Below, piece after piece: positions 57,978 to 60,471 of a stretch of 64,000 nucleotides of DNA. Every line of letters begins with the position of its first letter. Positions within the stretch are counted from its first letter, which is position 1. The stretch is from contig NC_015589.1 in NCBI RefSeq assembly GCF_000215085.1, positions 2,740,120 to 2,804,119 on the forward strand, written 5' to 3'. The notes below the pieces were generated by a model, which made no database searches, had not been told where the DNA came from, and was given only the letters and a program-made list of their open reading frames with translations. A program made the translations under genes and the position numbers. Origin of the DNA: Desulforamulus ruminis DSM 2154. GTDB taxonomy: Bacteria > Bacillota > Desulfotomaculia > Desulfotomaculales > Desulfotomaculaceae.

Positions 57978-58940
57978 TTATGGTAAGACAGGCTTACCGG
58001 CCCAGTCTTTCATATGATTATCACTGATGATGCTCACCAAAGCATGAGCCACTTCTTCAAACTGTTCCTTTAACAACCTTGAAACCCTCTGATTGATACG
58101 ATCACACTCCGTCAGGCAGAGCCGCTCATTGGCCTCAATAATCAGCTCCACCAGATACTTCTTAGGACCAATGCACATGGATCGTATGCTGTGAACATCC
58201 TTAACCCCCTCCAGAGCTAAGACATAATCCCCCACCTGCCGTATTAAGGCCGGATCAGCCGCTTCACCCAAGATTGCAGCAACATTTTCCCTGGCCGTAG
58301 CCAAGCCGATCAACAAAAGCATCATGCCAATTAAAATAGAAGCCAGTCCGTCAAAAAGAATATTTCCCGTTAAAACCGATAAAATAATGGCGCTGCCCGC
58401 CAGAATCAGCCCCATTAAGGCCGCTGTATCCTCTAAAAAGATAAAGCGCGTGGCCGGAGTAGCTTTGGCCAGTACAGAAAATACCCGCCAAAACATGCTT
58501 ATTCCCCTTGCCGATTCTCCACTTTCCTGCATGATCGCCTTTACCGCCATATACATGGAGTAACATTCAAACAAAATACTGATGCCAACGATGCCTAAAT
58601 TAAGACCAATATATTTCAAATGTTCAGGATGAATTATTTTTTCAATTCCTCCGTAGATAGATAAGGCTCCACCAATAAATAACATGCCCAGGCTGGCAAT
58701 AAAACTCCAAAAAAAGACCCTCTTGCCATGTCCGAACTGATAACGATCATCCACCGGACGTTGAGATTGCCTGATGCCGATCAAAAGAAAAAAGCCGTTG
58801 GCCCAATCCCCCACCGAGTGCTTAAACTCAGCCATCATGGAAGCACTGCCGCTGAGAATCGCCCCGCCCAATTTCATCAGCATGATCACACCGTTGGCCA
58901 AAAGGGCCGCTTTAATTGCCGCTTCACTGCTGTGGGCCAT
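57978..58940 (-). CDS. Cation diffusion facilitator (CDF) family transporter
   Basis: 320 residues: six TMs (about 12-235) and a C-terminal cytoplasmic domain (240-310). The metal site in TM2 is AEFKHSVGD (H-x-x-x-D). In TM5 the usual H/D-x-x-x-D is EDTAALMG, close to the ZnT9-like subgroup, so one ligand differs and metal specificity is uncertain. The ATG at 58940 follows GGGGTGGAG; an in-frame ATG at 58958 is less well placed. Confidence 0.87.
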   Translation of the reverse strand: MAHSSEAAIKAALLANGVIMLMKLGGAILSGSASMMAEFKHSVGDWANGFFLLIGIRQSQRPVDDRYQFGHGKRVFFWSFIASLGMLFIGGALSIYGGIEKIIHPEHLKYIGLNLGIVGISILFECYSMYMAVKAIMQESGESARGISMFWRVFSVLAKATPATRFIFLEDTAALMGLILAGSAIILSVLTGNILFDGLASILIGMMLLLIGLATARENVAAILGEAADPALIRQVGDYVLALEGVKDVHSIRSMCIGPKKYLVELIIEANERLCLTECDRINQRVSRLLKEQFEEVAHALVSIISDNHMKDWAGKPVLP

Positions 58941-59040
58941 TACTCCACCCCTTGTCATAAATTTTTAATCCTATTACGGCCTTTGATTGTCCGGCATATT
59001 TATTTTAACTTGTTGCGCCCGGGAGAATTCATCTTTTCTA

Positions 59041-59276
59041 AAAACAATATCCCCGGGGTCATCCATACCCCGGGGATTAACATGCTACCCGCTTAGCCGT
59101 CCGCCTGGTGTTTTTAATACCTGCTTCTCACAGGTGGGTGCCCTCTAAACCCTTTCTACCTTCCACTCTCCGGCGGCCTGGTATACACGGTTTAAGCGAA
59201 GCTCCCTTAAAACACACTGTGGTTTAAAAATCAACAAGCAACGCACAAAGCAGGAACTGATTTTTTTCTGCTGGCC
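59041..59276 (-). ncRNA. Candidate 6S RNA (ssrS-like)
   Basis: A ~235-nt untranslated transcript predicted from strong signals: a sigma-A promoter (59283-59311) directly after the stop of the upstream gene, no ORF, and a terminator at its end (ATCCCCGGGGT / ACCCCGGGGAT, 59049-59077, then TTGTTTTT). The two ends can form a long interrupted closing stem (for example TTGTTGATTTTTAA with TTAAAAACACC). The 3' part has GAGGGCACCCACCT and a small hairpin ACCTG / CAGGT, as I recall in Gram-positive 6S RNAs. 6S would bind the sigma-A holoenzyme. I give moderate confidence because the fold is by eye. Confidence 0.5.
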
Positions 59277-59282
59277 AAAAGT

Positions 59283-59311
59283 ATCATAACAAAAAGTCCA
59301 GTTCGCTACAA
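59283..59311 (-). promoter_or_regulatory. Sigma-A promoter of the candidate 6S RNA
   Basis: Read leftward: TTGTAG (59311-59306), 17-base spacer, TATGAT (59288-59283). Near-consensus; the predicted start is at G 59276. Confidence 0.75.
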
Positions 59312-59314
59312 GAG

Positions 59315-59500
59315 TTAATTTTTTTCTTCCAGATGCATTAATTGTCTGATTTGCCAGTAATGCAGCCTTTGCAAGGTTTTAATCTTTTTAGTAATTTCCT
59401 TTTTTTCAGTCTCACAAGAACTGATTTTTAATTGATACATTAATTCAAAGATCTCCAGCCGGGTTTGAAACATTGCTTCTTTTAGTTCCAGAGCATTCAT
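59315..59500 (-). CDS. Small helical protein, unrecognised
   Basis: 61 residues, mostly a predicted alpha-helical coil (LELKEAMFQTRLEIFELMYQ and EKKEITKKIKTLQRLH). One Cys. GGAG is about 10 bases before the ATG. The stop lies four bases before the 6S promoter. No family known to me. Confidence 0.62.
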   Translation of the reverse strand: MNALELKEAMFQTRLEIFELMYQLKISSCETEKKEITKKIKTLQRLHYWQIRQLMHLEEKN

Positions 59501-59687: not shown

Positions 59688-60077
59688 ATGAGGAATTGTC
59701 CCCATGCAACCGGCGTCTGTGCTTGTGATGCCTTGAGAAGCAGCGGTTTTGCCCGTACTTCCGTATCGGTGCCTGAAAACTGGTGGAATAAGTATTGTGT
59801 CTCCGGCAGGTACTCTCAGTGCCCAAATCTTAAAGCAGCTCAGGACATGAAAGAAGAAAGGCGGCGCAGCACCGGAGCAAGGTTGGGCGAGAAGGAAAAT
59901 TCCAAAGCCGCACCTAATTTAAATGCCTTAAAATTTAAACAGACGAAAAATAATAAAACTACCGCAGTCCATTCCCATGGCGGGGAGGCACCCCATTTCT
60001 GTGAAAAACCCTGGCGCTCTTCCGGTCTACGTTTTCGCATCATACGCTCATTATTTTATTTAAAACCCTGGAAATAA
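59688..60077 (+). CDS. Cys-containing small basic protein, unrecognised
   Basis: 129 residues. The N-terminal 50 residues carry six Cys (CPHATGVCACDA, then WWNKYCVSGRYSQCPN), which could bind a metal or an iron-sulfur cluster. The middle is Lys/Arg/Asn-rich and probably disordered, the end basic. GGAGTG precedes the ATG and a good terminator follows, so it is a real gene. The function is unknown. Confidence 0.65.
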   Translation: MRNCPHATGVCACDALRSSGFARTSVSVPENWWNKYCVSGRYSQCPNLKAAQDMKEERRRSTGARLGEKENSKAAPNLNALKFKQTKNNKTTAVHSHGGEAPHFCEKPWRSSGLRFRIIRSLFYLKPWK

Positions 60078-60153: not shown

Positions 60154-60471
60154 CTAATATTTGTTCTTCTTTTGGCTTTCTTTAATCATTTCTTCCACTT
60201 CTTCGGCGCCTTCCTGGTAAAACTTTTCTTCATCCGGGGCCAGTTCTTTTAACAATCTTAAAAATTCGCCGGCATGGACCCGTTCCTCATCAGCAATATC
60301 TTTGAGTACTTCTTGGGTTAAGGTGTGGTCGGTGGATTCGGCCAACTGCATGTAAAGCTGCACCGCTTCATACTCCGCAGCCACTAAGAACCTTATGGCC
60401 CGGATTAATTCCCCTTGGGTCAGCTTTTGTTTGGCCGCAAAGCCCGCAAAGGGATTGCCAAAATCAGGCAT
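60154..60471 (-). CDS. Encapsulated-ferritin-like (EncFtn) protein
   Basis: 105 residues. Two helices with the ferritin-like ligands: RAIRFLVAAEYEAVQLY and ADEERVHAGEF (E-E-x-x-H), followed by a short acidic third helix. Length and pattern match EncFtn, which forms an open decameric ring with ferroxidase activity and is normally housed in an encapsulin shell. No encapsulin gene is adjacent, and the C-terminal tail (SQKKNKY) lacks an obvious targeting peptide. It could also be a stand-alone rubrerythrin-like protein. Confidence 0.78.
   Translation of the reverse strand: MPDFGNPFAGFAAKQKLTQGELIRAIRFLVAAEYEAVQLYMQLAESTDHTLTQEVLKDIADEERVHAGEFLRLLKELAPDEEKFYQEGAEEVEEMIKESQKKNKY

Follow-up and report, generated by a model that had tools for sequence, protein, structure and literature searches.

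A second 6S RNA gene of a distinct paralogous type in Desulforamulus ruminis

6S RNA in Firmicutes and the locus in D. ruminis

6S RNA is common in bacteria, where it imitates an open promoter and restrains RNA polymerase. Several Firmicutes are reported to carry two 6S copies (PMC8414754). In Bacillus subtilis, 6S-1 (bsrA) and 6S-2 (bsrB) are described as both associating with the sigma-A polymerase and as differing in timing and expression (PMC11077062), and the Bacillus cereus group is reported to have tandem 6S genes, ssrSA and ssrSB, in one operon (PMC7726162). In Streptococcaceae, 6S is reported to adjoin tRNA-Lys (PMC8414754). Among the titles and abstracts covered, none dealt with 6S in Desulforamulus or Desulfotomaculum or with linkage of rnpB and 6S; most subscription papers fell outside this scope.

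We analyzed a 64,000-nt stretch of the Desulforamulus ruminis genome, hereafter the window. Of 4227 Rfam families, only 6S (RF00013) exceeds its cut-off anywhere in the window, on the minus strand at 59259–59082 (72.6 bits, cut-off 46.4, E = 2.2e-12, full-length model 1–187). The original prediction had judged 6S to be the best fit and had named this model, run on the minus strand, as the check; the match spans all 187 positions, scores above the curated cut-off, and upholds that judgment. The segment GAGGGCACCCACCT that it had pointed out is present and aligns with conserved letters of the Rfam 6S model at that point, and, as it had also claimed, the RNA holds no reading frame: no listed ORF of at least 60 aa lies inside it, and the only ORF touching its edge is a mechanical one on the plus strand (58728–59096). 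Between 58900 and 59700 the remaining matches to Rfam families (E up to 10) all lie far under their own cut-offs, and no tRNA genes were found within the 64,000-nt window. The RNA shares the closing stem, central bulge, and internal arm of the family (6S / SsrS), with no defining difference. Its identity as 6S is thus well supported by the covariance model together with covariation among its relatives (below), and, judging by its score, the locus would be picked up by routine Rfam-based annotation. The features, in window positions and in order of transcription, are as follows.

59306–59311, minus strand: -35 element TTGTAG, weak (3/6 consensus positions), spacing 17
59283–59291, minus strand: extended -10 element TGTTATGAT, of the form TGnTATnAT
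59260–59276, minus strand: predicted 5′ leader of the precursor (start approximate to a few nt), with 23 nt from the -10 element to the model start
59082–59259, minus strand: type B paralog of 6S RNA (SsrS family), approximate extent of the mature form, from RF00013 and covariation in 25 type B sequences
59219–59233, minus strand: predicted product RNA (pRNA) template UGAUUUUUAAACCAC
59049–59077, minus strand: intrinsic terminator from a terminator scan, 11-pair stem, then a T run to about 59040
57978–58958, minus strand: cation diffusion facilitator gene (Pfam Cation_efflux 2.2e-37; TIGR01297 above cut-off), downstream neighbor and not part of the RNA

The promoter had been described as a strong sigma-A promoter. 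Its parts are present on the minus strand, TTGTAG (59311–59306), 17 nt, and TATGAT (59288–59283), but it is not strong: the -35 element matches consensus at 3/6 positions and the -10 element at 5/6, the latter with a TG-n extension. A consensus promoter scan of the region did not include TTGTAG-17-TATGAT among its listed promoters, and we therefore used conservation across the genus as promoter evidence. Since the -10 element ends at 59283, transcription would start near 59276, and a precursor ending near 59040 is predicted to measure about 235 nt, the length originally proposed. The terminator claimed for the locus was likewise found, its 11-pair stem (59077–59049) being followed by ATTGTTTTTA; the terminator count (one found) is weak evidence by itself because shuffles of the region average 1.2.

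Two 6S types across the order and beyond

RF00013 matches the genome, a single contig of 3,969,014 bases, at two places 437 kb apart.

3236505–3236317, minus strand, genome numbering: 6S, higher-scoring copy (type A, locus L001), RF00013, 102.7 bits
2799378–2799201, minus strand, genome numbering: 6S, window copy (type B), RF00013, 72.6 bits

Two paralogs per genome are also found in B. subtilis (6S-1 and 6S-2) and as ssrSA and ssrSB in B. cereus, although the latter pair is reported from one operon. Because two-copy, tandem, and tRNA-adjacent 6S genes have already been reported in Firmicutes, the locus at 59259–59082, the second 6S gene of its genome, counts as an ordinary case within a known family.

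We sampled 60 genomes, comprising nine of the genus, one further member of the family, and 50 of the order. At least one 6S gene was found in 59/60, and two in all nine genus members, counts that are lower bounds under the stricter filters applied; the only genome without a match is 57% complete. The 84 RF00013 matches from the sample were excised, aligned, and placed in a tree, which midpoint rooting divides into type A (59 sequences) and type B (25 sequences). The 25-member clade, containing most of the sequences labeled B by regular expression, has a support of 0.999. Typing by regular expression left 8/84 sequences unlabeled and three with both labels, and the tree split was used in its place. 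Each of the 59 genomes with 6S has exactly one type A copy. Type B occurs in 22 genomes (nine of family f1, five of f3, two of f12, five of f16, and one of f18), as one copy in 19 and two in three, and each of the nine genus members has one copy of either type. The window RNA scores 154.2 bits with a type B model and 85.7 with a type A model, against 83.0 and 155.6, respectively, for L001, a separation favored by the fact that the alignment behind each model contained one of this genome's two 6S sequences. The window 6S is therefore one of two copies in the genome and belongs to a distinct paralogous type, a point absent from the original prediction.

Two loci in the sample have unusual arrangements. 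The relative G027 carries two type B 6S genes in tandem (L068, 1501–1939, minus strand), an arrangement like that reported for ssrSA and ssrSB. In L077 (1501–1767, minus strand), a type A 6S of 267 nt has repeated hairpin-like units inserted in its internal arm, as judged by eye.

The 6S rod (closing stem, central bulge, and internal arm) is found in type B with the backing of covariation. The alignment of 25 type B sequences has 34 consensus pairs, and 18/34 have changed on both sides. Paired cells amount to 95.9% compared with 82.4% in shuffles, a gap that is still large even though the consensus structure was derived from the same 25-sequence alignment, which favors the structure. None of 500 shuffles attains any of five measures, and pairing falls to 35 to 46% when partners are slid against each other. 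Most of this signal comes from the internal arm, where 12/15 pairs have changed on both sides; the closing stem is nearly constant (4/9 pairs never vary) and less informative. Across these 25 aligned sequences, covariation upholds the type B fold. The "long complementary ends" noted originally also appear in the predicted fold of the window RNA, which reaches -84.7 kcal/mol with the terminator (z = -3.19), but energy alone is no proof: without the terminator z is -2.09 and 7/200 shuffles fold as well, so that folding energy cannot by itself prove a structure. Only mildly unusual in that form, it was dropped as sole evidence for 6S.

Beyond the order, 199 genomes of the phylum were sampled, of which 183 have a match to the type B model and 190 to the type A model; the two models cross-match, so the figures tell how many genomes hold something 6S-like, not how many hold each type. 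From the matches listed we added 20 loci outside the order, chosen because they scored highly with the type B model or were another copy in such a genome. In the resulting 104-sequence tree, 13/20 group with all 25 type B sequences and without any type A (support 0.947), with partly low support inside this wider clade (0.64 one node in). Five genomes outside the order (G189, G090, G173, G185, and G146) have copies both inside and outside the type B clade. These groupings point to a likely deep split between type A and type B in the phylum; its depth is likely rather than proven because the 20 loci were chosen, inner support is partly low, and sequences of 180 nt give a weak tree.

Promoters, templates, and neighbors of the two types

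The two types differ in their promoters. Every type A copy (59/59) has a TGnTAnnAT element within 100 nt upstream, where shuffles predict 3.3; among type B copies only 11/25 do (1.6 predicted). TGnTAACAT is found in 41/59 type A copies, 33 of these 41 also having TTGnnA across a 17- or 18-nt spacer, and in 0/25 type B copies; TGnTATnAT is found in 10/25 type B copies, including eight of the nine genus members. The type A promoter is very constant in that TAACAT replaces TATAAT, as TGnTAACAT, in those 41 copies. Across the eight genus members with TGnTATnAT, the distance from the -10 element to the 6S model start ranges from 10 to 77 nt and therefore implies 5′ trimming or leaders of unequal length. 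No TGnTAnnAT-type element was found upstream of type B in G003 (the ninth genus member), G037, or G020 (L079), where the 6S model starts 9, 6, and 16 nt past a tRNA gene, respectively. Lack of a -10 element combined with such close tRNA genes suggests that type B 6S is cotranscribed with tRNA in these three genomes. The type B 6S of L079 (136–319, minus strand) is situated between tRNA-Leu and tRNA-Gly, 16 nt from each, near a partial 16S rRNA match. By eye, T-run hairpins follow many type B copies.

The predicted templates differ as well. By analogy with the B. subtilis 6S-1 pRNA as reported in PMC12005410, the window template would yield a pRNA 5′-GUGGUUUAAAAAUCA, with a start possibly off by one or two. 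Among the 25 type B sequences the template C never varies and the A that follows it is conserved in at least 90%; the templates have the form UUUU...ACC-(N)-AC. In known pRNAs, GG is reported at positions 4/5 or 5/6 (PMC8414754). In the predicted pRNA of the window it falls at 3/4, as in 6/25 type B sequences, the rest having it at 4/5; the predicted start may therefore be displaced by one or two, or the template may have diverged. The type A template of L001, GUUUUGAGCCAAC, has a predicted pRNA GUUGGCUCAAAAC that resembles the B. subtilis 6S-1 pRNA GUUCGGUCAAAACUA as given in PMC12005410, and the first 13 letters of that published pRNA (PMC12005410) have their exact complement in L121, as GUUUUGACCGAAC, a sequence that groups outside the type B clade.

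Type B genes also tend to lie near stable RNA genes. A tRNA gene occurs within about 1.5 kb of 9/24 type B loci (25 copies) vs. 0/59 type A loci, some loci ending at a contig edge. In 14/22 type B genomes, rnpB (RF00011) lies upstream on the same strand and contig, at about 0.1 kb to 59 kb: the gap is about 90 to 140 bp in all five f16 genomes, and 0.2 to 1.1 kb in G001, G002, G003, G004, and G008, with longer gaps in G036 (9.7 kb), G006 (16.9 kb), G005 (20.6 kb), and the window's genome (59 kb). In the other 8/22, rnpB is on another contig or more than 1 Mb off (G011, G020, G027, G032, G037, and G045, the matches of G011 and G037 falling under the cut-off), was not found (G053), or is missing from the 13.9-kb contig (G007). 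A search spanning 5 kb around type A in the nine genus members found no rnpB. Nor was any found beside 6S in the 20 loci outside the order (about 1 kb or less per side in most; 13 in the type B clade), and the linkage of rnpB and type B is thus documented for the order alone. A tRNA-Ala(GGC) gene comes after rnpB in the window's genome, as tRNA-Ala does in G001–G006 and G008. Both f12 genomes (L063 and L044) have tRNA-Lys about 150 nt downstream of type B, resembling the arrangement reported for Streptococcaceae; in contrast, the window's genus usually has rnpB and tRNA-Ala, upstream.

Downstream of the window 6S, relatives of the cation efflux gene are found within 5 kb of type B in 4/8 other genus members, and relatives of a following BON-domain gene in 7/8. 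Genes of the 2-thiouracil desulfurase family, the Fur family, and an ABC transporter also follow, with relatives near type B in some genus members. In G003, none of these genes (BON, efflux, desulfurase-family, Fur-family, and ABC) follows type B. On the other side of the 6S gene, a 61-aa ORF (59315–59500, minus strand) ends just upstream of the promoter and matches no Pfam or NCBIfam family; it probably encodes a real small protein, because 69–73% identical copies, not adjoining 6S, exist in four other genus members (G008, G007, G005, and G002). Further away are a 129-aa ORF that begins with a cysteine-rich segment and matches no family (59688–60077, plus strand) and an encapsulin ferritin-like cargo protein of the EncB family (60154–60471, minus strand; NF058679, 94.7 bits, cut-off 90).

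We infer that the simplest history for the genus starts from the order rnpB, tRNA-Ala, 6S, and a metal-transport block; some lineages would then have acquired DNA between tRNA-Ala and 6S. A wider scenario is possible, though on present evidence we lean against it: type B could be an ancient second kind of 6S in the phylum that ancestrally, in at least part of the order, was made in a transcript of RNase P RNA, tRNA-Ala, and 6S, its supply tied to growth-linked synthesis of stable RNA, with type A retaining a conserved promoter of its own. Some 59 kb would then have come between tRNA-Ala and 6S in the window's lineage, leaving this 6S gene dependent on its own promoter.

Proposed mechanism and alternative explanations

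We have high confidence that the locus is a second (type B) 6S gene, presumably transcribed by sigma-A polymerase from its own promoter, whose trimmed RNA would act as an RNA polymerase decoy released through a product RNA. Most likely, sigma-A RNA polymerase transcribes it from the extended -10 promoter; the precursor of about 235 nt would stop at the terminator and be trimmed to a rod of about 180–190 nt. Imitating an open promoter, the rod would bind sigma-A RNA polymerase and shut promoters, until nucleotides return and the polymerase copies the bulge into a short product RNA and releases 6S. These steps, as well as the function and growth-phase roles of both copies and a division of labor between the types, we infer from established knowledge of 6S. 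Because templates and promoters differ between type A and type B, analogy with 6S-1 and 6S-2 of B. subtilis suggests that the two are produced and released under differing conditions. Against this explanation as a whole stand a score below that of the paralog (72.6 vs. 102.7 bits), a poor -35 element, the mild folding energy without the terminator, and the GG at 3/4 in the predicted pRNA.

The lower bit score and the weak -35 element could also mark a decaying duplicate, homologous to 6S but with transcription or function lost. This is very improbable given that type B is kept in 9/9 genus members and 22/60 sampled genomes, that 18/34 of its pairs have changed on both sides, and that it has its own promoter element and a terminator. 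A somewhat different possibility is that a 6S-derived RNA has kept the fold and acquired a new role, not as a sigma-A decoy but, e.g., as a decoy for an alternative sigma factor. That type B forms a separate clade with a different template sequence, and is absent from 37 of the 59 genomes with 6S while type A is in all of them, would fit such a role; the 6S core and the template C are nevertheless conserved, and B. subtilis 6S-2 is reported still to associate with the sigma-A polymerase (PMC11077062), and we consider it improbable.

Finally, the RNA shares its strand with the cation efflux gene and lies directly upstream of it, as would an attenuator of that gene, or it might belong to another structured RNA family. 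Either seems scarcely credible, since the RF00013 match itself argues against both and no other Rfam family passes in the window, the 11-pair terminator stands between the RNA and the efflux gene, and no efflux relative was seen in the 10-kb loci around type B 6S of family f16 and G003. The locus shows that the genus bears two types of 6S with different predicted templates and promoters. Why some bacteria retain two 6S RNAs could be tested simply through the linkage of type B with rnpB and tRNA genes: one RNA may be supplied together with stable RNAs as cells grow, and the other may follow a schedule of its own.
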